In this document: in pieces, positions 6,806-26,952 of the stretch | Position numbering within the stretch: the stretch's first letter is position 1 | How the letters are laid out: each line of letters starts with the position of its first letter | IMG/VR virus record: IMGVR_UViG_3300006874_000098 | Span: 1-27,929 of that record | DNA from: a virus | Length of the DNA stretch: 27,929 nt | Direction: 5' to 3' (one strand) | Position numbers and translations under genes: made by a program | Notes under the pieces: model-generated | What the model was told of the DNA's origin: nothing | What the model saw: the letters and a program-made list of their open reading frames with translations, nothing else | Database searches by the model: none

Positions 6806-6824
6806 TATAAATAGTATATAAATA
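6806..6824 (+). promoter_or_regulatory. Tandem T4-type late promoters upstream of gp8
   Basis: Two complete TATAAATA octamers at 6806-6813 and 6817-6824, offset by 11 bases (about one helical turn). They start 3 bases after the gp7 stop and lie 27 or more bases before the gp8 ATG at 6851. A strong GAGGAGA ribosome-binding site (6836-6842) follows. The doubling suggests strong late expression of gp8 and the giant gene after it. Confidence 0.8.
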
Positions 6825-8374: not shown

Positions 8375-11300
8375 ATGGCAGAAAAAACCGATTTAAATAT
8401 ATCACCATATTATGACGACTACAATGAAGACAAGAATTTTCATAAGGTTCTTTTCCGTGCAAGTCGACCACTACAAGCAAGAGAATTAACTCAGTCTCAA
8501 TCTATACTTCAAAATCAGGTTGAGAAATTTGGTGACCACTTCTTTAAAGAAGGTGCAATCGTCCAAGGTGCTCAAACAGATATTGACATGGAAGCATACT
8601 ATGTCAAGGTTTCTGCAGCCAATCCAAATTCAAACGGAGATGCAAATGTTGAAACCTACAGAACTGCAACTCATGAACAATATCTTCAAGGTAAAACCTC
8701 AGGTGTTATTGCAAAGTGTGTTTACTCTGCAGCTGAGACAGAAGATGAATCATTAACTCTTTTTGTTAAATACATTTCACAAGGAACTAATGATACACAC
8801 TCATTTGCGTTTTTAGCAAATGAAGAACTTCAAGTAGTTACACTTGACGGAGATGGTAATGCATCAGAAGTTGGGTCAAACAATAATGACTTTACAGTTT
8901 TAAGTGCAGATAAACTACCAATTGGTAGAGGTTCACTTGCAAAGATTACCGAAGGAATTGTTTATGTCAGAGGTTTCTTTGTTAAGGTTCCTGCACAAAC
9001 TTTAATCCTAGAGAAATTCTCAGGTAGACCTTCATACCGAATTGGTCTAAGTATTGTAGAATCTCTCATCAGTTCTGCCGAAGATAGTTCACTTTTAGAT
9101 AACTCTTCAGGAACTACAAACGAAAACGCTGCAGGTGCAGACCGTTTAAAAATTTCACTAACTCTATCTAAGTTTGCAATTGATACAACAGACGATATTA
9201 ACTTCGTTGAACTTGCACGAGTTAGTCAGGGTCTTATTGAATCACTAGTCAACACAACAAGATATGGTGACGGTATTACCTCAACCCTTGCACGAAGAAC
9301 ATTCGATGCAAACGGTGACTTTGTTCTTAGACAATTCACTCACTCACTTAGAGAACACTTAGACGATACCACAAACAGAGGATTTTATCCAAAGAGATAT
9401 GGTGGTGTAGAAGATAAATTCGTCCTACAGATTTCGCCTGGTAAGGCATATGTCCGTGGTTATGAAATTGATAAGATTGGAACAACCAATCTACCTTTTT
9501 CTAAAGCACGTTCAACAAAATCTATTCAAGATGCAAACACTCCTATTCGTTTAGGTAATCATCTTAGAGTATACAACGCACATTCACTTCCTGAATTCGG
9601 TAACGAAACAGGTTCAGACTCTATTGACCCATTCAACACATGTAAGTTATGGCCTAGTGTTGTTTCAAGTGCAGGAACAGAAAACTCAGAAGACCCTATT
9701 GGTTTTGCAAGAGTTAGAGACATTACATTAAGAGAAGGAACAGATTCCTCTAATGTATATACTGATGCAAGTGTTTGGGAACTCTCAATGTTTGACATTA
9801 AGATGTTCACAAAAATTTCAGGAACCCAAACAAACACATTCACAGCTGGTGACAGAGTTGTTGGGTCATCCTCAGGTGCATCAGGTATTGTTGCATACAC
9901 TTCATCAGGACAACTATATGTCCACGATGTAGTCGGAACATTCACAACTTCAGATTCTATTTCATCTCAAGGTTCTAATACAGGTTCAATTTCAACAGTA
10001 ACAGCTGTTAGAAACTACAACATTGATAGAGTAAGATCAATTACACAGGTTCCTGAAAATACTTCAAGAGAAGTTTTTACAGCTGATGTTCAATTAGATG
10101 CAGACAAGACTTTAACAGGAACCGTTATCTTTGCAAGTGGAAGTCCCACGGTTACAGGTTTTGGAACAAAGTATGTCACTGAACTTAAAGAAGGTGACTT
10201 AGTTTATAACCCTAGTGCATCAGAACTTCTAGTCGTAAGTTCAGTAACAAATGATACTTCTTTTACTGCAACAACAAATGCTGGTGGTTCATATCAAGGT
10301 AATGCAACGAGAAGAAGAGCACAACTGCACAATCAAGATCAGACAGTTAATATCTTCTCATGGCCAAGAAACTGGATTGCATCACATACACCCGAATCAG
10401 TAACAATTAAGAAACAAGAAGTTGTTACAATTTCTTCAGGTTCATTTACTGTAGATACAGATTCAAATGGAACCTTCTTACAGAGAAATACTGATAACTT
10501 CTCTATTGCAGTAGTTGAAGAATCATCAGGTTCACCAACAATTAACAATGGTGATATCCTTAACATTGAAGACTATACACTAAGTGTAACAACTTCAGGT
10601 TCAGGTCAACAGTTAACAGTATCAGGATTTGACTCAGCAGACAATGGTGCAAGATTGAAGGTAACCTTCTCTGCATCATATGTCAATCCAGTAAACAGAG
10701 ATAAGACACTACGACAAGCAAGATGTTTGAAAGTAGGTAGTGCAAGAAGTGCTGGTGGTTTTTACGGAACTGCATACGATGATAAAGATATATCACTAGG
10801 TGTTACAGATGCATTTAAGATTAGGGGTATCTACGAAGGTGTAGATGGAACTCCTCTACCACCGAATGCAGCTTTCAGTATTTCAAGTGGAACACCAGTT
10901 GCATATGAAAAGATTGTTGGACAAACATCTGATGCACATGCTGTCATTATTACATACAACGGTAGTGGTGCAACATCATACTTCTACTACACAAACAATA
11001 ATAGATTCCAAGATGGTGAAACTGTTATTGGACAAACATCAAATGCAATTTTCACTGTAGGTTCTATTTCAGCTGGTTCACCAAACATTACAAAGAGATA
11101 CTTCTTTGATGATGGACAGAGAGATGGATTCTATGACCTTTCAAAACTTACAAGAAAGGCAGGAGAACCTGCACCAAATAATGCTATCTTAGTAGTGTTT
11201 GACTACTTTACCTCATCAGGTGGTGGTGACTTCTATGATGTTAACTCTTATTCATCAATTGATTATAAAGATATCCCTGTCTACTCTCCAAGTAGAGTTG

Positions 11301-14300
11301 ACTTAGGTGGTTTAGAACCCGATGGAACTTATGAGTTATCAGATTCCGTAGACTTTAGACCATCTGTTGGACAGGTTTTAGGAAGTTCTACATTTGCAAC
11401 TGCAAATGCAGACCCCACATCTCCAGTTGATTTATCTAATTCATCCACTGGTGCTGTTTATGCACCGATGAGTTATGACACTGGTAGGTCATATAAGAGC
11501 AGTAGAACAGGTATTACATCATCAAACGCAAGTGTTGTAGATACACCTGTCAATGAAACATCCGTAGTGGGTGACCTAAGTTTCTATGTGGGAAGAATTG
11601 ATAAAGTGTTCCTACACAGAAGTGGAGAGTTTAGACTTTCACAAGGTATTCCAGCTCTTTCTCCAACAAAACCTAAATCTCTAGATGAATCTATTGAGAT
11701 GTTTGAGTTAACAATTCCACCTTATACTTTAAACTTATCAGAGATTAAAGTAAGGTCGTTTGAACACAGACGTTATACAATGTCAGACATTGGTAAGATT
11801 AATAATCGTGTAACTAACCTTGAAAGAATTACATCTCTTTCTCTGTTAGAAAAAGATACACAAACAAAACAGATTTTAGACTCAGATGGTTTTGATAGAT
11901 TTAAATCAGGTTTCTTAGTAGATAACTTTAGAGGTCACAGAGTTGGTGATACTCAACATCCCGACTATTCAATTTCAATTGATAATAAGTTGGGTGCAAT
12001 GAGACCTAAAAACTTTACACAGTTTTTTGACATTGAGTTAAACACAGGTGCTTCAGGAAGTTACCAAAAGACTGGTGACCTAATCACACTACCATATACT
12101 GAACAAACCTATATTAATAACACTAAAGCATCAAGACAAATAAATGTTAACCCATATAATGTGTTTGCATTTATTGGTAACATTAAACTAACTCCTGCAA
12201 CAGATATCTGGCAGGACACTGAACAACTACCCGAAGTAAGAGTAAATAGAGAAGGTAACTTTGATGCACTTTCAGGTATCAATGGTATTGGAACAGTTTG
12301 GAATAACTGGCAGACCACATGGGTTGGTGAACCTAGAACAGTTTCTAGTCAAGTTACTGCAACCTCTAATGGTCAGTGGTCAGGTGACCCTGCACAAGGT
12401 GGTGAATGGCAAGCTGGATTCCAGTTAACAAGAGAGATTACTGAAACACCCGAAACACAAACTAGAACAGGTGTTACTACATCTGTTGTGGAAGATTTTG
12501 TTGAAACAAGAAACGATAGAATCGTATCAGTTTCAGTCGTTCCTTTCATTCGTGCAAGAACAATTGAAATTGATGCAACTAATTTAAAACCTAATACTAA
12601 TCACTTTATATTCTTTGATGGTATTAGAGTCGATCAATATGTAAGACCATTTAGCGGTTCCTTCTCACAAGACGGTGGAACTGGTGCATCTTCAGGTGTT
12701 AAAACAAATGGTAACGGTAGACTTCGTGCATACTTTGATATTCCAAGTAACTCTGCACAGAGATTCCCAACTGGTCAAAGAGATTTAAGAATTACATCAA
12801 GTTTCTATAACTTGACTAACCCTGCATCTAGTGGTAATACACAGTATCAAGCACAGGGTCTTCTTCAATCTTCACAGACAGAAATTGTATCAACTAGAAA
12901 TGGTAGGATTGTAACTGAAACAACATCAGAAAATAGAGATTTTTCAAGTAGAGGTGAAATATTAAACTCAACTGCAATTGATACCTCTGCAACTCCATAT
13001 CCATCTCCACCTGAGATACCACCAGCTGCACAGATTCCAGTTGACAACACATCTGTTCCTGAACCAGTTTCAGAACCAACTCTTCCTACACCCGAACCTG
13101 CACCACAGTGGTCACCAATTGCAGCTCCAGTTCCTGAGCCATCTCCACCTATACCTACGGTAACCGAACCAGTAGTAGAAGACTTATGGGTGGAACCATG
13201 GTTTGAAAGAAGAGATTTAGCGAGACTACCTATATGGAGAAGAGAATTTCAAGAAGACCAAGACCCTCTTGCACAATCATTTTTGGTTGATGCATCAGGT
13301 GGTATGTTCTTAACTTCAGTAGGTATATACTTTGCAACCAAAGATGAGTCTATTCCAGTAAGAGTAGAAATCAGAAACATGGTTAATGGTTATCCAGGCC
13401 AAGTTATTCTACCATTCTCAGATGTAACTAAGAATCCTTCAGAAGTCACCACTTCAGTTGATGGTTCCGTTGCAACTACATTTACATTTGATTCACCTGT
13501 TTACTTAGAACAAGGTAAGGAATATTGTTTTGTAGTCTTATCAAACTCTGATAAGTATGAAGCATTTATTTCTAGAATGGGTGAACCTGATCTTATCACT
13601 GGACAAACCATTGCAGAACAACCTGCAACAGGTTCACTATTCATGTCTCAGAATGCATCCACATGGACAGCAGAACAGACTGATGACTTGAAGTTCCATC
13701 TAAAACATGCAAAATTTGATACAACAAAATATGCAGATTTAAGATTCGATAACGCTGCACTACCTGTTGCAAATCTTCAAGATAATCCAATTGAGTCATT
13801 TAGTGGACAGAACTATGTTAAAGTCTACAGTTATACACACGGAATGTATACGACTAGTTCTAATGTAACAGTTAGTGGTGTAACAGGTAATATGACAGGA
13901 TGTGTTGTGAACATTGGTGGTGCATCATTAGTAACAGGAAGTCTTCCAGCAGATGGAACATATACAGGTATTGCAACTACTACAGATGTAGGAAGTAGTG
14001 GTCAAAACTGCACAGTAGATATTGTAGTATCTTCAGGTGCAATCACATCAACCAAGATTTCAAATCCAGGCTTATCATATACAACAGATAATACACTAAC
14101 AGTTACAAACTTTGGTGGTGTAAGTGAAACAAACAGTGTTACCATAGCAATTGATACTGTTGCAGAAACACTAGGTGGTATACCAGTTGATGCAATCAAT
14201 CAGACATTTACATCAATCTCTAACATAGGTATTGATTCATTCTGTGTAATACCCGATGTGTCATCATACGATTTCGTTTCAGGTTATACAGCAGTAGAGT

Positions 14301-15103
14301 CAACATTGAGTGGTGGTGCAGATGCAAAATCAACTAGAAACTACTACTTTGATGCAATTCATACCATGATACCAAACACTATGTTGGAAAGCACACTGAT
14401 TAGTGTTGCAGTAAACACAACTGCAATGGATTCACCCGAAGGATATAGTGGTGGTGGAACTGCTTATCAGATGAGAGCAGCTGGTGATATGATAACACTA
14501 AATGATAATGTGTTCTTCAGTTCACCAAGTATTGTTGCATCTCCTATTAACGAAACAAATGAAATGTCTTCACAGAAATCATTCTATTGTAGAGTTCAGA
14601 TGAAGACACAAAACAGTAATGTGTCACCAGTATTGGATGTTGCAACTATAGGTTGTTTGGGTATTGCAAACAGAATAAATGAGATTAACTCATCTAATGA
14701 TGTTCCACTTGGAACTACCTATATTGCATCTACAGAACCCGATGGTGATAACAACAAGATGGTTTATGTAACGAAGAAAGTTAACTTGAAAACTCCTGCA
14801 ACTGCATTGAGAGTTACAGCTGATATCTTCAACCCACCTACAACGAATGTTAAGTTCATGTATAAAGTGTTAAGAAATGATGAAGCAACTCCTTTCGATG
14901 ATACAGGATGGGAATATTTTAACTCTAACGGTTCACCTGATTCTTCATTAGTATCAGATGCAAGAAACTTTAAAGAGTATGAGTTCACAGTTGAGAACCT
15001 ACCTGAGTTTGGTGCATTTGCAATTAAAGTTATAGGACAAGGAAGTAATACCTCAGTAGTGCCACTCGTATCTGCACTTAGATGTATTGCACTTGCAACA
15101 TAA
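8375..15103 (+). CDS. Giant baseplate/tail structural protein, DUF4815 type (2242 aa)
   Basis: The N-terminus (about 1-75), with NISPYYDDYNEDKNFHKVLF and SRPLQARELTQSQSILQNQV, is the conserved head of DUF4815 proteins, large virion proteins of T4-like marine phages. Further along are SSSGASG/QTSNA beta repeats (about 490 and 850-890), a long beta-rich body, a proline-rich hinge (about 1541-1600, many PEP/PSPP units), a DPLAQSFLVDASGGMFLTSVGIYF domain after it (about 1630), and a glycine-rich GTY...GAI module (about 1843-1914) shared with gp8. It lies directly after gp8, where T4 has gp9, gp10 and gp11, so I infer a peripheral baseplate role, possibly holding fibres. It is the largest protein in the window and nothing resembling gp9-gp12 follows. 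The exact function is not established. Confidence 0.8.
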   Translation: MAEKTDLNISPYYDDYNEDKNFHKVLFRASRPLQARELTQSQSILQNQVEKFGDHFFKEGAIVQGAQTDIDMEAYYVKVSAANPNSNGDANVETYRTATHEQYLQGKTSGVIAKCVYSAAETEDESLTLFVKYISQGTNDTHSFAFLANEELQVVTLDGDGNASEVGSNNNDFTVLSADKLPIGRGSLAKITEGIVYVRGFFVKVPAQTLILEKFSGRPSYRIGLSIVESLISSAEDSSLLDNSSGTTNENAAGADRLKISLTLSKFAIDTTDDINFVELARVSQGLIESLVNTTRYGDGITSTLARRTFDANGDFVLRQFTHSLREHLDDTTNRGFYPKRYGGVEDKFVLQISPGKAYVRGYEIDKIGTTNLPFSKARSTKSIQDANTPIRLGNHLRVYNAHSLPEFGNETGSDSIDPFNTCKLWPSVVSSAGTENSEDPIGFARVRDITLREGTDSSNVYTDASVWELSMFDIKMFTKISGTQTNTFTAGDRVVGSSSGASGIVAYTSSGQLYVHDVVGTFTTSDSISSQGSNTGSISTVTAVRNYNIDRVRSITQVPENTSREVFTADVQLDADKTLTGTVIFASGSPTVTGFGTKYVTELKEGDLVYNPSASELLVVSSVTNDTSFTATTNAGGSYQGNATRRRAQLHNQDQTVNIFSWPRNWIASHTPESVTIKKQEVVTISSGSFTVDTDSNGTFLQRNTDNFSIAVVEESSGSPTINNGDILNIEDYTLSVTTSGSGQQLTVSGFDSADNGARLKVTFSASYVNPVNRDKTLRQARCLKVGSARSAGGFYGTAYDDKDISLGVTDAFKIRGIYEGVDGTPLPPNAAFSISSGTPVAYEKIVGQTSDAHAVIITYNGSGATSYFYYTNNNRFQDGETVIGQTSNAIFTVGSISAGSPNITKRYFFDDGQRDGFYDLSKLTRKAGEPAPNNAILVVFDYFTSSGGGDFYDVNSYSSIDYKDIPVYSPSRVDLGGLEPDGTYELSDSVDFRPSVGQVLGSSTFATANADPTSPVDLSNSSTGAVYAPMSYDTGRSYKSSRTGITSSNASVVDTPVNETSVVGDLSFYVGRIDKVFLHRSGEFRLSQGIPALSPTKPKSLDESIEMFELTIPPYTLNLSEIKVRSFEHRRYTMSDIGKINNRVTNLERITSLSLLEKDTQTKQILDSDGFDRFKSGFLVDNFRGHRVGDTQHPDYSISIDNKLGAMRPKNFTQFFDIELNTGASGSYQKTGDLITLPYTEQTYINNTKASRQINVNPYNVFAFIGNIKLTPATDIWQDTEQLPEVRVNREGNFDALSGINGIGTVWNNWQTTWVGEPRTVSSQVTATSNGQWSGDPAQGGEWQAGFQLTREITETPETQTRTGVTTSVVEDFVETRNDRIVSVSVVPFIRARTIEIDATNLKPNTNHFIFFDGIRVDQYVRPFSGSFSQDGGTGASSGVKTNGNGRLRAYFDIPSNSAQRFPTGQRDLRITSSFYNLTNPASSGNTQYQAQGLLQSSQTEIVSTRNGRIVTETTSENRDFSSRGEILNSTAIDTSATPYPSPPEIPPAAQIPVDNTSVPEPVSEPTLPTPEPAPQWSPIAAPVPEPSPPIPTVTEPVVEDLWVEPWFERRDLARLPIWRREFQEDQDPLAQSFLVDASGGMFLTSVGIYFATKDESIPVRVEIRNMVNGYPGQVILPFSDVTKNPSEVTTSVDGSVATTFTFDSPVYLEQGKEYCFVVLSNSDKYEAFISRMGEPDLITGQTIAEQPATGSLFMSQNASTWTAEQTDDLKFHLKHAKFDTTKYADLRFDNAALPVANLQDNPIESFSGQNYVKVYSYTHGMYTTSSNVTVSGVTGNMTGCVVNIGGASLVTGSLPADGTYTGIATTTDVGSSGQNCTVDIVVSSGAITSTKISNPGLSYTTDNTLTVTNFGGVSETNSVTIAIDTVAETLGGIPVDAINQTFTSISNIGIDSFCVIPDVSSYDFVSGYTAVESTLSGGADAKSTRNYYFDAIHTMIPNTMLESTLISVAVNTTAMDSPEGYSGGGTAYQMRAAGDMITLNDNVFFSSPSIVASPINETNEMSSQKSFYCRVQMKTQNSNVSPVLDVATIGCLGIANRINEINSSNDVPLGTTYIASTEPDGDNNKMVYVTKKVNLKTPATALRVTADIFNPPTTNVKFMYKVLRNDEATPFDDTGWEYFNSNGSPDSSLVSDARNFKEYEFTVENLPEFGAFAIKVIGQGSNTSVVPLVSALRCIALAT

Positions 15104-18957: not shown

Positions 18958-19290
18958 ATGGCTATTATTGCAAACCTCTACATAGATCAAGGAACAGACT
19001 TCAGTATCACTGTTGATGTAACTGATTCTGCTGGTGAGATATTGGAATTAGATGATTACACTGCAGCTGCACAGATTAGAAAGACCTATAGTTCTTCGAC
19101 AGTGAGTGCAACTTTTGCTACATCAATTGCAGCGTTGGCAGGTCAAGTAACTATTTCTTTAACTGATACTCAGACATCTGCACTTGAAGCAGGAAGATAT
19201 GTATATGATTTAAATATCACTAGTGCTGCAGGAGTAGTCACAAGAGTAATTGAAGGACAGGCAATCATAACGCCTGGTGTAACAAGGTAA
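18958..19290 (+). CDS. Small virion-associated beta protein (110 aa)
   Basis: The start NLYIDQGTDFSITVDVTDSAGEILELDDYTAAAQIRKTYSS and the end TQTSALEAGRYVYDLNITSAAG...RVIEGQAIITPGVTR match a common phage virion pattern ('DQG.DF...V...G...DL.gY.a..qiR......AG.Y.YDl......V.ri.eG...v.p.vT'), an immunoglobulin-like beta-sandwich protein encoded near tail fibres. Its length is normal for that group. It probably forms part of the fibre or baseplate collar. The next gene begins 4 bases after its stop, suggesting an operon with the 72-aa gene and the amidinotransferase. Confidence 0.72.
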   Translation: MAIIANLYIDQGTDFSITVDVTDSAGEILELDDYTAAAQIRKTYSSSTVSATFATSIAALAGQVTISLTDTQTSALEAGRYVYDLNITSAAGVVTRVIEGQAIITPGVTR

Positions 19291-19294
19291 TAAT

Positions 19295-19513
19295 ATGTCA
19301 GGAAATATTAAAGCAAGAGTTTTACAAACAAACACTATTCGTGCAAAACAGGTTGCAATTGGTAACTCAGCAACTAATGTAAACTTGTCTGCAAAATCTA
19401 TCAATGAACTTGCAGATGTTAATGTGGTTGAAACAGATGATGGACTTCTTTCTTATGATGCAGCTACGGATAAGTGGGTTACAAAAACTGTTTTAGATGG
19501 TGGAACATTCTAA
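19295..19513 (+). CDS. Small fibre-type protein ending in DGGTF (72 aa)
   Basis: SGNIKARVLQTNTIRAKQVAIG at the N-terminus and SINELADVNVVETDDGLLSYDAATDKWVTKTV near the C-terminus follow the 'L.DV.......G.lL.YD....kW' pattern of phage fibre proteins. The last five residues, DGGTF, recur exactly at the end of the 510-aa fibre and as DGGTL in the 86-aa fibre. It has too few residues to be a shaft; it may be a fibre tip, connector or chaperone. It lies 3 bases before the GTG start of the amidinotransferase. Confidence 0.7.
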   Translation: MSGNIKARVLQTNTIRAKQVAIGNSATNVNLSAKSINELADVNVVETDDGLLSYDAATDKWVTKTVLDGGTF

Positions 19514-19516
19514 TCA

Positions 19517-20419
19517 GTGAGTCCTACTTTATGGTCATGTGATGAGTGGTCACCCCTAAAAGAAATCATTATTGGTTCACTCAAGGGTCACGAACAACTC
19601 AAAAAATATTCTTACTACATTAAAGATATTTCTATAATAAGAGATATCTTAGATGAAGCACAAGAAGGGTTAGATACCTTTCAATCTATTTTAGAAAAAC
19701 TTAACATAAAGGTTTACAGACCACATGGTTTCTGTTATAATGTAAGAGACTGTGCTGTAGTCATAGAAGATACAATTCTAGAATCTTCGATGAGATATAA
19801 AGAAGAATACGGTTATCTTGAAACATTAAAACCTATTTTTGAAGAAAAGGTTTCAGAGGGTGCAAAATTAATTACTGCACCAAAACCTACATGGAGACCT
19901 TGGGTAAATCCAAACGAACCTATTTTTGATGCAGCTAACATATGTCGATTAGGTAAGGACATATTAATCAGTATAAATGAAACTGCAAATGAACATGGAA
20001 GAGATTGGGTCTTTAAAACATTCAATCATTTAAATCACCATCATATAGTTCAAAAAGAAAGAATATCACACATTGACACTACCTTTGTTCCAATATCTAA
20101 CGATACAGTTATGATAAATCAGGAAAGAGTAAAAGAGATACCATCCGTATTTAAAGATTGGAAACATATCTTTATCAATATTGAGGACATGAATAAGGAA
20201 AAACCACCTATTGTGACGACAAGATGTGCATCGGCATTTATTGGAATGAATACCCTTTCTATAGATAATAATACTGTATGTGTCAATGAAAGGGAAGTAA
20301 AATTAATAGAAAAATTAGAAAGACATAACTTTAATTGCATACCTATACCCCTCAAACAAACTAGAACTCTATCAGGTGGACTGCATTGTTGCACTTTAGA
20401 TTTACTTAGAACATCTTAA
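19517..20419 (+). CDS. Amidinotransferase (glycine/inosamine amidinotransferase family)
   Basis: A 300-residue enzyme of the guanidino-group modifying superfamily, which transfers the amidino group of arginine to an amine acceptor through a cysteine adduct. Visible family motifs: CDEWSPLKEIIIG at 8-20; NVRDCAVVIEDTILESSMRY at 75-94; FDAAN at 137-141 (FDAAD in human AGAT, around the catalytic Asp); HIDTTF at 185-190 (catalytic His in HIDATF of AGAT); and GGLHCCTLDLLR at 287-298, with Cys291 in the place of AGAT Cys407. All catalytic positions look intact. The start is GTG at 19517, the only plausible start before CDEWSPL, and has no clear ribosome-binding site, so translation probably depends on coupling to the preceding gene (3-base gap). 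The acceptor is unknown; glycine, a sugar amine or a fibre-associated amine are possible. Deiminase or hydrolase activity cannot be ruled out. Confidence 0.85.
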   Translation: MSPTLWSCDEWSPLKEIIIGSLKGHEQLKKYSYYIKDISIIRDILDEAQEGLDTFQSILEKLNIKVYRPHGFCYNVRDCAVVIEDTILESSMRYKEEYGYLETLKPIFEEKVSEGAKLITAPKPTWRPWVNPNEPIFDAANICRLGKDILISINETANEHGRDWVFKTFNHLNHHHIVQKERISHIDTTFVPISNDTVMINQERVKEIPSVFKDWKHIFINIEDMNKEKPPIVTTRCASAFIGMNTLSIDNNTVCVNEREVKLIEKLERHNFNCIPIPLKQTRTLSGGLHCCTLDLLRTS

Positions 20420-20422
20420 TGT

Positions 20423-20430
20423 TATAAATA
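20423..20430 (+). promoter_or_regulatory. T4-type late promoter before the 510-aa fibre
   Basis: A perfect TATAAATA just after the amidinotransferase stop. Its predicted start would give a leader of about 129 bases, by far the longest in the window. Confidence 0.75.
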
Positions 20431-20435
20431 TTAGT

Positions 20436-20564
20436 ATCAAATCAAGGTGTCATTCAGTGAGACACGACCCACATAGTGAGTGGAGAGTATATAATGTATC
20501 TTTCTCGGAAAGTGAAGAGAAAAAATCTTAATTAAGCTTTTTAAAAAATTTCAAGGAGAAATAA
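20436..20564 (+). promoter_or_regulatory. Long structured 5' leader with a small ORF
   Basis: Downstream of the late promoter are three possible stem-loops: GTGTC/GACAC (20447-20465), CCAC/GTGG (20469-20483) and CTTTC/GAAAG with a TCG loop (20500-20512). A 13-codon ORF (MYLSRKVKRKNLN, 20494-20535) has GGAGAG six bases before its ATG. The real gene has its own AAGGAGAAATAA site. The function is unknown; stems are short. Confidence 0.35.
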
Positions 20565-22097
20565 ATGGCTACAGTAATTCAAATTAAAAGGTCGACTGGT
20601 TTATCCGCTCCAACGACTTCTGACTTATCAGAAGGAGAATTGGCGTATGTCCAAGACCGTGCAAACAGTGGTGCTTCGGCAAAATTGTTTATTGAATCTG
20701 TTGATTCTGATAACTCTACTCCATTAATACACGCAATCGGTGGTAAATACTTCACCGATATGTTGAGTGGTTCATCTGCAACACCTGCTAACTTTAAAGT
20801 TGGTAACGGTGCTACATCAGGTGGTTCTATTCAGTTGATGGAAGATTCAGACAACGGTGTTCACTCTGTAGGTTTGAAAGCTCCTGACTCAGTTGCTGCT
20901 GATCTTACTTTTGTTCTACCAGGCTCAGACGGTAGTGCAAACCAAGTATTAGCAACAGACGGTTCAGGTAACCTTTCATTCTTATCAACAACTTCAACAC
21001 TTGCTGGTGCAACAGACTCAGATATCTCTGCTCCTTCATCAGGACAAGTTCTTGTTCATGATGGTTCAGATTCATTTGACAACGTAAGTATCTCAGGTGA
21101 CGCAACACTTGCTTCAGATGGTTCTCTAACAATTTCTGCTGGTGCAGTTGAGAACTCAATGTTAGCAGGTTCAATCTCATATGATAAGATTGACTTCTTA
21201 ATTGACGAAGACAACATGGCATCTGATTCAGATGTTAAAGTTCCTTCTCAACAGTCAGTTAAAGCATATGTTGATTCACAATTAACAGCACAAGATGTTG
21301 ACTTCGCTGGTGACAGTGGAACAGGTGCAGTTGATTTAGACTCACAATCATTGACTATTGCAGGAACAACTAACGAAATCGTTACTTCTGCTTCAGGTCA
21401 AACTTTAACAGTTGGTCTTCCTACTAATGTCACAACTCAAGGTAACTTGACAGTTGGTGGATATCTTGCAGGGCCTGCTTCCTTCACAATCGACCCAGCT
21501 GCAGTTGGTGACGATACAGGAACAGTTATCATTGCTGGTAACCTACAAGTAGACGGAACAACAACAACAATCAATTCAACAACAGTTGCAATTGATGACT
21601 TAAACTTCTCAATAGCTTCAGACGCTGCTGATTCAGCTGGTGCCAACGGTGCTGGTATTACAATCGGTGGTGCAGGTGCAACCTTCACATATACCCATGC
21701 AGACACTTCATGGAATATGAACAAGTCATTGAACATCACAGGTGGTTTATCACTAAGTAGTTCAATTACTGAGATTGATGGTGCAGCTCCAACTGCTGGA
21801 CAACTATTAATTGGTAATGGTTCTAATGGAGACATGGAACTTGCTACTTTAACTGCTGGTGAAGGACTTGACGTAACTAACGCTGACGGTGCAATCACAT
21901 TATCAGCTGAAGATGCTACTGCTAGTAATAAAGGTATTGCTTCATTCTCAGGTTCATACTTCACTGTAACTTCAGGGGATGTTGCTATCAACAATGCTAC
22001 AACATCTGCAAAAGGTATTGCAAGCTTTGATTCATCTAACTTCACAGTAAGTTCAGGTGCTGTCTCTGTTTCAGCTATAGACGGCGGAACATTTTAA
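20565..22097 (+). CDS. Modular tail fibre protein (510 aa) ending in DGGTF
   Basis: The N-terminus MATVIQIKRSTGLSAPTTSDLSEGELAYV is the common phage fibre head ('IQ.kRS....P....L..GELAy') also seen in the next gene. The middle contains IDEDNMASDSDVKVPSQQSVKAYVDSQL (about 215-245), a unit repeated twice in the 801-aa fibre, and a GNLQVDGTTTTINSTTVAIDDLNF module (about 325-350) found in two other genes here. The C-terminal part has two KGIASF...F.V.SG.V units and the terminal DGGTF. No enzyme motif is seen. Expressed from its own late promoter with a long leader, so probably a major fibre subunit; a receptor-binding role is inferred. Confidence 0.82.
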   Translation: MATVIQIKRSTGLSAPTTSDLSEGELAYVQDRANSGASAKLFIESVDSDNSTPLIHAIGGKYFTDMLSGSSATPANFKVGNGATSGGSIQLMEDSDNGVHSVGLKAPDSVAADLTFVLPGSDGSANQVLATDGSGNLSFLSTTSTLAGATDSDISAPSSGQVLVHDGSDSFDNVSISGDATLASDGSLTISAGAVENSMLAGSISYDKIDFLIDEDNMASDSDVKVPSQQSVKAYVDSQLTAQDVDFAGDSGTGAVDLDSQSLTIAGTTNEIVTSASGQTLTVGLPTNVTTQGNLTVGGYLAGPASFTIDPAAVGDDTGTVIIAGNLQVDGTTTTINSTTVAIDDLNFSIASDAADSAGANGAGITIGGAGATFTYTHADTSWNMNKSLNITGGLSLSSSITEIDGAAPTAGQLLIGNGSNGDMELATLTAGEGLDVTNADGAITLSAEDATASNKGIASFSGSYFTVTSGDVAINNATTSAKGIASFDSSNFTVSSGAVSVSAIDGGTF

Positions 22098-22124: not shown

Positions 22125-22952
22125 ATGGCAACAGTAATACAATTTAAAAGAAGTTCCACTCAAGGTGCAACACCTACTACAGGTGACTTGTCTTTGGGGG
22201 AACTTGCTGTCAATACCTATTCAGGTAGATTCTACACTGAAAAGAACGATGGTAGTGCAGCTGTTGTAGAGGTTGGTTCTAATCCATCAACCTTAACTGT
22301 GAATGATGCATTTTCCTTTCCTACAAGTGACGGTTCCTCAAATCAGATTTTAAAAACTGATGGTTCAGGAACTTTGAGTTGGTCAGACCAACCTTCATCA
22401 GGTGTAAAAACCTACACTTATACTATTACAACTACAACTACTTCTATTAGTGGTTCAGATGATAATAGTGATACTCTTGTATATACCTCAGGGTATGAGC
22501 AAGTGTATATCAATGGTGTGAAGTTGGTTGGTGGTGGTGCAGACTATACTGCAACCAATTCTTCCACAATCACTTTAACGGAAAACGCATTAAGTGGTGA
22601 TGTTGTTGAAGTTATTGCAATCACAAGTGCAGCTAATCTTGTTCAAGGTTACTTCACTGAGAGTTCATTTTCAACTACATCAAGTGATCAAATATTATCT
22701 GCAAATGCATTAGCAAATAAAGCAGTTAAATATGTGATTTCCGCCACTCACGCATCAGCAGGCACTCACGCAGCTGAAGTTTTATTGGTGAACAATGGTA
22801 GTAGTGCATACTTTGTGCAATACGGTGATGTTTATTCAGCATCATCGTTGTTTACATTGAATGCAGATGTTTCAGGTGGTAATGCTAGATTACTAGTTAC
22901 TCCTGCAAACACAGATACTACAATCGATACATTCCAAATCAGGTTATCATAA
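22125..22952 (+). CDS. Tail fibre protein with shared C-terminal domain (275 aa)
   Basis: The head MATVIQFKRSSTQGATPTTGDLSLGELAVNT pairs it with the preceding gene as a paralogue. Residues about 100-168 hold a beta module with YINGVKLVGGGADYTATNSSTITLTENALSGDVVEVIAI, the 'NG..L..g.DYT' type common in phage fibres. Residues 199-275 form a domain (KYVISATHASAGTHAAEVLLVNNGSSAYF...LLVTPANTDTT) also present at the ends of the next two genes. TATAGGAGA lies upstream as ribosome-binding site. Likely a fibre or fibre-tip subunit. Confidence 0.8.
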   Translation: MATVIQFKRSSTQGATPTTGDLSLGELAVNTYSGRFYTEKNDGSAAVVEVGSNPSTLTVNDAFSFPTSDGSSNQILKTDGSGTLSWSDQPSSGVKTYTYTITTTTTSISGSDDNSDTLVYTSGYEQVYINGVKLVGGGADYTATNSSTITLTENALSGDVVEVIAITSAANLVQGYFTESSFSTTSSDQILSANALANKAVKYVISATHASAGTHAAEVLLVNNGSSAYFVQYGDVYSASSLFTLNADVSGGNARLLVTPANTDTTIDTFQIRLS

Positions 22953-23478: not shown

Positions 23479-24219
23479 ATGGCAACCAAAAAGAATTTAA
23501 TAGCTGATATTGGAATAGAGACACACGGTAGTTTGACTGTAGATGGTAATGCAACCATCACAGGAAACCTAACAGTAAATGGAACCAGTAATACAGTGGA
23601 ATCCACAACCACATCGGTTGAGGATAACCTTATTGAGCTTGCAAATAATAACACTAGTTCTGATACACTTGATATTGGTATATACGGTAACTATGACGAT
23701 GGACTAGCAGATGGGGCATCAGAGTATACAGGATTCTTTAGAGATGCAAGTGATTCCACATGGAAACTATTTGATGGATTAGAAGTTGAGCCTGGTTCTA
23801 CTGTTAATATTTCAGGGTCAGGATTTGCAAAAGCAGCTTTAGAAGTTGGTGACTTATCATGCACAACCATTACTGCATCTGATTCACTTACTATTGACAG
23901 TTTAGTAGTAGATTCCTCAAGTGGTTCTACATTAGAAACTACAAGTGAGACAGATTTAGATTCTTGGGCAACTTCTACATATAGAAGTGCAAAATATGTT
24001 CTTCAAGCAACCGAAGGAACTAAATACCATACAACAGAAGTTATAGTTATACATGATGGAAGTGATGCATACTTCACACAATTCGGTGAAATTATCACAA
24101 CTTCATCATTGTTTGAGGTTTCGACCTCAGTAGAAAGTGGAAGTGTAAAATTAAAAGTTACACCTGCTTCTGCAAATTCAACAGTTTTTAAATGGTCAAG
24201 AACTTTAATTAAAATTTAA
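23479..24219 (+). CDS. Tail fibre protein with shared C-terminal domain (246 aa)
   Basis: Residues about 17-100 carry the module GSLTVDGNATITGNLTVNGTSNTVESTT, then EDNLIELANN...DIGIYGNY and FFRDASDSTWKLFDGL, which recurs in the 510-aa and 801-aa fibres and is widespread in marine phage fibres. Residues 169-246 (KYVLQATEGTKYHTTEVIVIHDGSDAYFTQFGEI...KLKVTPAS) are the shared head domain of the two genes upstream. So it combines a shaft module from one fibre class with a head from another. Own late promoter; AGAGAGATAATTAGAGT leader with weak ribosome-binding site. Confidence 0.8.
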   Translation: MATKKNLIADIGIETHGSLTVDGNATITGNLTVNGTSNTVESTTTSVEDNLIELANNNTSSDTLDIGIYGNYDDGLADGASEYTGFFRDASDSTWKLFDGLEVEPGSTVNISGSGFAKAALEVGDLSCTTITASDSLTIDSLVVDSSSGSTLETTSETDLDSWATSTYRSAKYVLQATEGTKYHTTEVIVIHDGSDAYFTQFGEIITTSSLFEVSTSVESGSVKLKVTPASANSTVFKWSRTLIKI

Positions 24220-24286: not shown

Positions 24287-24547
24287 ATGGCAACACAAAA
24301 TACCTTTGTTATAGAGTATGGATTGTCGGTTGGTTCCACTGAGGTCATCAATTCGTCAGGTAAGTTGCAGGCAGCTGCAATCTCAGAGTTGGATACAGAT
24401 AATCTCTCAGAAGGTTCCACGAATCAATACTTTACAAACACAAGAGCGAGAGGTGCAATATCACTTGCATCAGGTGAAAGTAACTTGAGTTACGACTCTT
24501 CAACTGGTAAAATATCGTTACCACAGGTTGATGGAGGCACATTATAA
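24287..24547 (+). CDS. Small fibre protein ending in DGGTL (86 aa)
   Basis: NTFVIEYGLSVGSTEVINSSGKLQAAAI at the start resembles the start of the next gene (NFIIKNGLTVGTTEVITSSGSITSAAV), so the two are paralogous at the N-terminus. Then comes one LSEGSTNQYFTNTRARGAISLAS unit, YDSSTGKISLPQ, and the DGGTL end shared in form with two other genes here. It overlaps the 801-aa gene by one base (TAATG). It may be a truncated duplicate, a connector, or a partner needed for folding of the large fibre. Confidence 0.75.
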   Translation: MATQNTFVIEYGLSVGSTEVINSSGKLQAAAISELDTDNLSEGSTNQYFTNTRARGAISLASGESNLSYDSSTGKISLPQVDGGTL

Positions 24548-26952
24548 TGACAGCTAAAAATTTCATAATCAAAAACGGTCTTACTGTTGGAACAACAGAA
24601 GTCATCACTAGTTCAGGTAGTATTACATCAGCTGCAGTAGGAGATGCTCTAAACGAAGCAATTGCAGATAAGATTGGTGGTATTATTCAGGGTTCAGGTT
24701 CAACCACAGTAACCTATGATGATACAAACGATACTATCACCATTTCATCAACTGGTAAGACAGAAGAAGAGATTCAAGATATCGTTGGTGCTCAGTTAGT
24801 AACCAACGGTTCACATACAAATATTACTGCATCTTACGATGATTCAGGAGACGGTGCAGTTGACCTTTCTATCTCTGATACAGTTATCAGAGGAAAGATT
24901 AGTGCAGGTGGTGATTTAAGTTATGATAACAGCACAGGTGTTGTATCATTTACAGAAAGAACAGATGCAGAAGTTAGAGGACTTATTAGTGCAAGTGGTG
25001 ATTTAAGTTATGATAACAGCACTGGTGTAATTTCATTTACTAACGATGCTGGTGATATAGAATCAGTAATCGCTGGAACTGGTTTAACTGGTGGTGGAAC
25101 TTCAGGTGATGTTACATTAAGCATTGACCTTAAAGATGAAGATAACATGGCTTCAGACTCTGCAACTCATGCCGCTTCACAGCAATCAATTAAAGCATAC
25201 GTTGATTCACAAATAGCAAGTAAAGATAACACAGACGAAATTACAGAAGGTTCAACTAACTTATACTTTACAAATGCAAGAGCAGATGCTAGGATTACAG
25301 CGGCATTAATTGACGAAGATGACATGTCATCAGATAGTGCTACTAGAATCCCTTCACAACAAAGTGTTAAGGCATATGTTGATTCACAAGTTGATACAGT
25401 AGATGCATTAAGTGAACTAAGTGGTGATACTGATGATGTATCAGAAGGTTCGACTAATTTATATTATACTGATGCAAGAGCCAGAGCGGCCATAAGTGCA
25501 TCAGGAGATTTAAGTTATAACAGTTCAACAGGTGTTGTATCATACACAGAACCTACAATGTATGCCGATTCAGATGCCAGAGGTGCAATCTCAGTCACAG
25601 ATTCAGGTGGAGATGGTTCACTTGCATATAATTCATCAACAGGTGTAATTACATATACAGGCCCTAGTGCATCAGAAGTTCAAGCACATATTACTGCTGG
25701 AACTGGTGTGTCGGTTTCAAGTGGTCAAGTTAGTATTGGTCAGGCAGTAGGAACTTCAGATTCACCCACATTTGCAGGTGTAACACTTACAGGTGCATCA
25801 ACAGTTTCAGGACATGTTCTTCCAAGTGCAGATGTTACCTACGACTTAGGTTCAGCATCGTATCAATGGAGAGACGTATATGTCGGGCCAGGGTCACTTT
25901 ATGTTAACGGACAAAAAGTATTAGAAGATAGTTCAGGAACAATCGTTGTTTCTGCTGATTCAGACCAAAACCTTCAAATGAAAACTGCTGGTAGTGGTGA
26001 CATTGAGTTCAACCCATCAGGCACAGGTATCATTCAAGCAAAAGGAACACTTCAAATGCTTGATGGTGAGTTAATCACCAACAGTGCTGGTAATGCAGTT
26101 GCATTCGGAAACAACATCAGTGTAGATCAAATTGCTTCTAGAAGTGCAGACACAAACTTAGTATTGAGTGGTAACGGAACAGGTAATGTTACATTGAATG
26201 ACGATGTTGTCATCTCAGGTTCATTGACAGTTTCAGGAACAACAACTACAGTTAACTCAGAGACAATCAATCTTGCAGATAACATTCTAAACCTAAACTC
26301 TGATTTTACATCAGGTTCACCTACACAGGATGCAGGTATAAGTGTTTCAAGAGGTGGTTCAACTGCAAAAACATTCTTATGGGATGAAACCAACGATAGA
26401 TGGACAGTCGGTTCAGATAGCATGGTTGCAGGAACATTCATTGGTAATCTAACAGGGGATGTCACAGGAGATGTTACAGGTAATGCTTCAACAGCAAGTG
26501 CTTGGGCAACTGCAAGAACACTAAGTTTAACAGGTGCAGTTACAGGTTCTGCTTCAGTAGATGGTTCAGGTAATGTTTCACTTGCTACAACAGCAACAAG
26601 TGACCCAACATTGACACTTGCAGGAGATGCTTCAGGTAGTGCAACATTTACAAATTTAGGTAACGCAACATTAACAGTTACAGTTGCAAACAATTCACAT
26701 ACACACACTGTATCAAATATTTCAGACTTGACTGTAACAGCAGCTGAGTTGAACTTCATGGATAATGTAACATCTAATGTTCAAACTCAGTTGAATGCAA
26801 AATATGGTAGTGGTTCTAATGCAACACTAGGAACAATTACTACAAGTAATGCAAGTAATTCAGGTGGATATGTAAGAAATGTTTATCAATCTACATCAGC
26901 TCCTACTTCAGGTGATGGTGCAGTTGGTGATTTATGGATTCTCTACTCTTAA
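24547..26952 (+). CDS. Large modular tail fibre protein (801 aa)
   Basis: A tandem series of recognised fibre units. Near the start is KNFIIKNGLTVGTTEV. Three or more GDLSYDNSTGVVSF units occupy about 115-180. Two DEDNMASDS/DEDDMSSDS...SQQSVKAYVDSQ units lie at about 195-285, and two EGSTNLYFTNARA/EGSTNLYYTDARA units at about 235-315. GGSITVSGTT-type strands with LADNILNLNSD, AGISVSRGG and TFLWDETNDRWTVGSD lie at about 555-630, followed by GNLTGDVTGDVTGNASTASAWATARTL (about 635-665). It ends GAVGDLWILYS. The N- and C-terminal types are those of long fibres of marine myoviruses. It is coupled to the 86-aa gene and ends inside a terminator stem. A likely long fibre shaft; tip ligand unknown. 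Confidence 0.85.
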   Translation: MTAKNFIIKNGLTVGTTEVITSSGSITSAAVGDALNEAIADKIGGIIQGSGSTTVTYDDTNDTITISSTGKTEEEIQDIVGAQLVTNGSHTNITASYDDSGDGAVDLSISDTVIRGKISAGGDLSYDNSTGVVSFTERTDAEVRGLISASGDLSYDNSTGVISFTNDAGDIESVIAGTGLTGGGTSGDVTLSIDLKDEDNMASDSATHAASQQSIKAYVDSQIASKDNTDEITEGSTNLYFTNARADARITAALIDEDDMSSDSATRIPSQQSVKAYVDSQVDTVDALSELSGDTDDVSEGSTNLYYTDARARAAISASGDLSYNSSTGVVSYTEPTMYADSDARGAISVTDSGGDGSLAYNSSTGVITYTGPSASEVQAHITAGTGVSVSSGQVSIGQAVGTSDSPTFAGVTLTGASTVSGHVLPSADVTYDLGSASYQWRDVYVGPGSLYVNGQKVLEDSSGTIVVSADSDQNLQMKTAGSGDIEFNPSGTGIIQAKGTLQMLDGELITNSAGNAVAFGNNISVDQIASRSADTNLVLSGNGTGNVTLNDDVVISGSLTVSGTTTTVNSETINLADNILNLNSDFTSGSPTQDAGISVSRGGSTAKTFLWDETNDRWTVGSDSMVAGTFIGNLTGDVTGDVTGNASTASAWATARTLSLTGAVTGSASVDGSGNVSLATTATSDPTLTLAGDASGSATFTNLGNATLTVTVANNSHTHTVSNISDLTVTAAELNFMDNVTSNVQTQLNAKYGSGSNATLGTITTSNASNSGGYVRNVYQSTSAPTSGDGAVGDLWILYS

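Follow-up and report, generated by a model that had tools for sequence, protein, structure and literature searches.

What is an intact amidinotransferase gene doing among the tail fibre genes of a phage? This question is raised by a 27,929-base viral fragment (the window, meaning the whole stretch of DNA analysed) with a gp7-like protein and a fibre region similar to those of pelagimyophages and related phages (HTVC008M, Mosig, and Melnitz). The phage belongs to a marine T4-like lineage. The gene occupies 19517-20419 on the + strand, starts with GTG, stops with TAA, and encodes 300 aa. A 72-aa small fibre gene (19295-19513, +) stops 3 bases before the GTG. Three bases past the TAA begins TATAAATA (20423-20430, +), the T4-late-type promoter motif of the next tail fibre gene (20565-22097, +, 510 aa, protein MATVIQIKRSTG...). 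A sequence-only reading of this locus had proposed an intact amidinotransferase-type enzyme in this position. The complete reading frame, the motifs FDAA (F137-A140), HID (H185-D187), and GGLHC (G287-C291), homology far beyond chance, and the coordinates all agree with that proposal.

Identifying the enzyme class is the first step toward an answer. Sequence searches of solved structures returned amidinotransferases as the sole matches. With the phage enzyme as the phmmer query against the PDB, StrB1 was matched at E 1.2e-30 and HsvA at E 2.2e-30, with SxtG and AGAT next. The predicted structure (pLDDT 93.2, pTM 0.92) matched StrB1 with a Foldseek E of 2.3e-26 and a VIA Z of 37.3. Structural Z values were 37.3 for StrB1, 37.3 for HsvA, 37.2 for SxtG, and 36.6 for AGAT, against 30.0 and 26 for the hydrolases arginine deiminase and DDAH; the fold thus separates amidinotransferases from hydrolases but not amidinotransferases from each other. 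By sequence, the profile of the enzyme's own clade gave 149.3 bits for StrB1, 138.6 for HsvA, 116 for SxtG, and 101-110 for AGAT, and a wide profile of 53 relatives gave StrB1 388 bits versus 266-289 for HsvA, SxtG, and AGAT. Counted from the phmmer alignment, the predicted catalytic residues D78, D138, H185, and C291 correspond to D108, D179, H227, and C332 of StrB1. R77, D78, H185, D187, G287, H290, and C291 are invariant across the 53 relatives, so the loss of the catalytic Cys that the sequence-only reading had named as a counterargument is not seen.

That reading had assigned the enzyme to the glycine amidinotransferase type (AGAT/GATM), a label that our results do not support. The closest solved relative is StrB1 (149.3 bits versus 106.6 for AGAT with the clade's own profile), and AGAT ranked after StrB1, HsvA, and SxtG by sequence. 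At the site of AGAT Met302, a residue of its acceptor loop, wild-type AGAT aligns with a gap, whereas the Met302-deletion mutant 2jdx aligns gap-free and with a higher score. Judged by this alignment, the missing residue is a StrB1-like feature. A further alternative is a hydrolase of guanidine groups, akin to arginine deiminase or dimethylarginine hydrolase, with no more than a resemblance to the amidinotransferases. The pentein fold is common to both, a weak dimethylargininase match was obtained, and Pfam labels the enzyme ADI (PF02274), a label explained by a model that spans the whole superfamily. Against this, NCBIfam hydrolase models reached at most 26 bits versus cut-offs of at least 300, the structural Z drops from 37 to 30 and below, the solved-structure searches yielded amidinotransferases only, and the window enzyme was placed in no hydrolase group. 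We consider a hydrolase highly improbable and rejected arginine deiminase/DDAH identity. PHROG 25854, which carries no function, also matches the enzyme. Sequence and predicted structure together make a StrB1-type amidinotransferase, as an enzyme class alone, very probable. Archaeosine-type 7-deazaguanine DNA modification was also considered as a role, but it is known to use a different enzyme family.

The gene is also maintained. dN/dS was 0.15 between the window and its relative L137 (79% identity), and other pairwise values were 0.13, 0.09, and 0.20, with 0.23 where dS was saturating; values of 0.09-0.23 indicate purifying selection.

The position of the gene is unusual and well-defined. 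Downstream of a VrlC-like large structural gene (8375-15103, +), homologous to HTVC008M gp057 and taken as the upstream limit of the host-recognition cluster described in PMC7029224, the order is a fibre-assembly-type gene (18958-19290, +; phrog_3304, L-shaped tail fibre protein assembly), a 72-80 aa gene, the amidinotransferase, the late-promoter motif, a leader, and the fibre gene. The small gene and the promoter motif border a cargo slot upstream and downstream. This slot is occupied by the amidinotransferase in 14 contigs (the window, L001, L007-L012, L137, L198, L204, L205, L340, and L359; L001 is cut inside the gene). The slot relatives are 51-79% identical to the window enzyme, with L359 at 45% in the alignment and 39% by tblastn. 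In quick trees, the slot copies formed one clade with 100 SH-aLRT. Fibre linkage, which the sequence-only reading had emphasized, is therefore conserved within the enzyme's own clade according to the neighbourhood survey; L013 is the one exception in gene order; there, a fibre-like gene and one of 236 aa precede the amidinotransferase.

In most related phages the slot is empty, and the promoter and leader come straight after the small gene. A leader-based survey, independent of the enzyme, found the amidinotransferase in 7 of 111 slots. Other slots carry proteins of 127-135 aa whose N-terminus is hydrophobic and signal-like (L227:3071-3478, L247:2250-2633, and L151:10045-10428) or, in one case, a 180-aa protein (L242:2164-2706). 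The L242, L227, and L247 proteins had no match in Pfam or PHROG. Mapped on the flanking-gene tree, presence and absence require 5 changes, at least 3 of them forced by well-supported branches; the amidinotransferase has been gained or lost several times. An optional gene downstream of a VrlC-like gene and among tail fibres is what host-recognition cargo looks like, and with the slot mostly empty and holding other genes in a few kin, the host-recognition cluster carries the amidinotransferase as optional cargo, not as a core assembly gene. The last codons of the L137 enzyme plus promoter (GAACATTTTAG TTTTATAAATA) are identical to the small-gene end in the empty site of L167, and this short shared sequence hints at a possible recombination joint of the slot.

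The promoter motifs bear on when the enzyme is made. On the + strand, TATAAATA occurs at 137, 6806, 6817, 20423, and 23442, which make up four sites just upstream of gene starts. Exact copies are modestly enriched, with 6 on both strands versus 2.2 expected, a number reached by 3 of 100 shuffles. The nearest copies upstream of the amidinotransferase (6806-6813 and 6817-6824, +) would mark the unit start. If these motifs act as T4-type late promoters, the amidinotransferase would be the final gene of the unit running from 6806 to the promoter at 20423, and its transcription is probably late, along with that of the fibre genes. Late expression, as the sequence-only reading had proposed, is thus a fair inference, but it has little bearing on function. 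That reading had also taken late timing as an argument against a host-metabolism role. The argument does not hold, since a slot that is empty in most kin and takes unrelated cargo in some leaves late timing with little to say about function, and a metabolic role is possible. Within the window, the 3' ends of the small gene (19497-19513) and the amidinotransferase (20407-20430) are alike, with GAACATYTTAR before the promoter.

Does the fibre location mean that the enzyme acts on the virion? One possibility is that it guanidinylates an amine of a virion protein during assembly, either fibre lysines, giving homoarginine, or an N-terminus. The conserved position in the fibre cluster fits this idea, with a fibre-like gene adjoining even in the differently ordered L013. 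The slot-clade enzymes are also short (287-302 aa versus ~347 aa for StrB1); loops are missing between R68 and D78 and around 125-135, and their absence could leave the active site more open. However, most close kin carry the same fibres without the amidinotransferase, and Lys and Arg enrichment of carrier fibres, considered as a sign of protein modification, was rejected because the content is equal in carriers and non-carriers. We know of no amidinotransferase family member with a protein acceptor. The earlier suggestion that the fibres are rich in Arg was contradicted by their composition, with 0.4% Arg in the 510-aa fibre, 1.5% in the 275-aa fibre, and 0.4-1.9% across the main fibres (20565-22097, 22125-22952, 23479-24219, and 24547-26952). 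Modification of a virion protein is improbable on this evidence. A broader version, in which the enzyme guanidinylates amines of the phage's tail fibres or of the glycans on them as virions assemble, and the guanidino groups carried by the virions tune receptor binding, appears similarly unlikely.

The fibre gene following the slot has a structured leader, a separate finding that may matter more than the amidinotransferase. Between the promoter and the fibre start (20423-20564), three hairpins span 20447-20522 (+), at 20447-20465, 20469-20483, and 20501-20522, with loops ending in GTGA or similar and covarying stems. The leader occurs in at least 119 contigs, and the start of the same fibre gene comes next in 117. 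All five pairs of hairpin 1 are kept in eight distinct versions, with 4 of the 5 changing on both sides, and its paired cells reach 100% versus 72% in shuffles. One covarying pair was found in hairpin 2 and three in hairpin 3. A hairpin 1 of 5-6 bp is present in 66 of 73 distinct leaders, in ten sequence versions. When arms were randomly re-paired across leaders, they still paired in 35% of draws because a few versions dominate; the support comes from the variety of versions and not from that control. An Rfam search of the window copy gave no match. The leader could serve as the operator of a phage protein that regulates fibre translation.

More distant relatives offer clues to the acceptor. 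StrB1-type amidinotransferases are known mainly from bacterial antibiotic and toxin biosynthesis. An alignment-based scan found at least 498 relatives in viral contigs, so this family is common in environmental phages and hardly described there. Bacterial relatives include those of Streptomyces, cyanobacteria, and large sulfur bacteria, among others. Neighbourhoods were counted for 80 loci out of these relatives. A UDP-sugar dehydrogenase, aminotransferase, or carbamoyltransferase lies at most 5 genes away in 48/80 loci, and an aminotransferase specifically in 37/80. A small oxygenase-like gene, with weak sub-cut-off PF05118 matches, is present in 43/80, usually one or two genes upstream; the 180-aa slot cargo of L242 had no match to it, and common descent of the two was rejected. 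The scattered positions that would have weakened the fibre connection thus appear among distant relatives, mostly in sugar or amine cassettes, while the enzyme's own clade is fibre-linked. In others (L014-L026 and the L066 group), the amidinotransferase stands alone in replication or tail regions. The sugar and amine neighbourhoods favour an amino sugar or similar amine as the putative acceptor. The large set of phage enzymes to which L007-L086 belong (at least 498 contigs) is mostly undescribed, and many of its members sit in cassettes with sugar dehydrogenase, aminotransferase, radical SAM, and carbamoyltransferase genes.

The slot copies themselves do not carry such cassettes. DegT aminotransferases were absent from all 8 slot-clade contigs searched, most of them fragments and one of 123.8 kb, and the surroundings of the slot copies yielded no amino-sugar genes. 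The 123.8 kb contig has a radical SAM-SPASM gene ~39 kb from the amidinotransferase and, at a greater distance, a split carbamoyltransferase. We therefore rejected a second amine-pathway gene in these slot-clade contigs, and the amine would have to be supplied by the host or by genes that escaped detection. The lack of DegT in these 8 contigs keeps a metabolic role as a serious rival. Here, the enzyme would guanidinylate glycine, lysine, putrescine, or a comparable free metabolite of the host. The yield would be ornithine for polyamines or a guanidino compound such as agmatine or homoarginine, with a use in DNA condensation or nitrogen metabolism, and the fibre site would be no more than a convenient insertion point. 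A slot that holds unrelated genes or nothing in kin is what a general cargo site would look like, and HsvA, whose PDB title names it a polyamine amidinotransferase, is nearly as close as StrB1 (138.6 versus 149.3 bits), which is also a point against an amino-sugar acceptor. On the other hand, the genes recognised beside the window amidinotransferase include none for polyamine or creatine pathways, and distant kin far more often have sugar and aminotransferase genes. We regard the metabolic role as possible but doubtful.

Other features were observed in related phages. A carbamoyltransferase is split into two overlapping frames at L087:485-2267 (N-terminal 485-1654, C-terminal 1647-2267). A small acyl-carrier-type gene (PP-binding, E 4e-15) at L089:4914-5129, in the downstream structural region, adjoins genes suggestive of neck proteins by size and order. 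Curli-like genes were recognised by eye at L090:17027-20000 and L091:500-1306 (CsgG-like, curlin-like repeats), as reported for pelagimyophages; one of these genes, checked against Pfam, gave no match.

Our preferred explanation builds on the class, catalytic residues, fold, selection, slot, and patchy presence, all read from sequence and model. In it, the gene encodes a StrB1-type L-arginine:amine amidinotransferase that is optional cargo of the fibre slot, probably made late, with a small amine destined for a surface or virion glycan as its acceptor. We give this reading as a whole a probability of roughly 45%. Cys291, assisted by Asp78, Asp138, and His185, would take the amidino group from arginine, the likely donor, ornithine would be released, and the amidino group would then be passed to a small amine, for which an amino sugar or a cyclitol-like precursor is the most likely candidate. 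The guanidinylated precursor would end on a surface or virion glycan, which would gain a positive guanidino group and could change recognition or superinfection. As single-gene cargo beside fibres in one lineage, the gene lends itself to a one-gene comparison of carriers and non-carriers that could reveal the benefit of the guanidino group.

Among characterized enzymes, StrB1, the L-arginine:inosamine-phosphate amidinotransferase of Streptomyces griseus (PDB 1bwd), is the closest. It shares the fold and four catalytic residues, is gap-free at the AGAT Met302 site, and has the top sequence score. The two differ in that they are 30% identical, the phage enzyme is ~50 aa shorter, and inosamine pathway genes are not nearby; the StrB1 subgroup acts on scyllo-inosamine phosphate as part of an aminocyclitol pathway. 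HsvA (PDB 5wpi) also shares the fold and catalytic residues and ties with StrB1 in Z, but trails StrB1 by ~10 bits with the clade profile and by 100 bits with the wide phage profile.

Among phages, Campylobacter CP220 and CPt10 and Synechococcus S-SCSM2R encode enzymes of the same superfamily that are annotated as amidinotransferases and show 23-32% identity in alignments. Their genes lie within radical SAM, glycosyltransferase, or 2OG-oxygenase clusters, unlike the one-gene slot before a fibre in the window. In CP220 and S-SCSM2R the company comprises glycosyltransferases, radical SAM enzymes, and 2OG oxygenases, and the S-SCSM2R neighbours include glycosyltransferases, 2OG oxygenases, and an aminotransferase-type gene. 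The CP220 and CPt10 clusters were already noted in PMC2853527. No specific report of an amidinotransferase in pelagiphages or cyanophages emerged from literature searches; PMC11360552 deals with creatine synthesis at its methyltransferase step rather than the amidinotransferase step, and a text search of PMC7029224 for 'amidino' gave no mention of an amidinotransferase. The arrangement most like ours is the pelagimyophage host recognition cluster, a variable island downstream of VrlC with tail fibres and optional, possibly surface-modifying cargo (PMC7029224). The glycosyltransferases of these fibre-linked islands are considered in PMC7029224 to change the host surface and impede co-infection, and a cargo enzyme that adds a guanidino group to a surface glycan would fit that picture.
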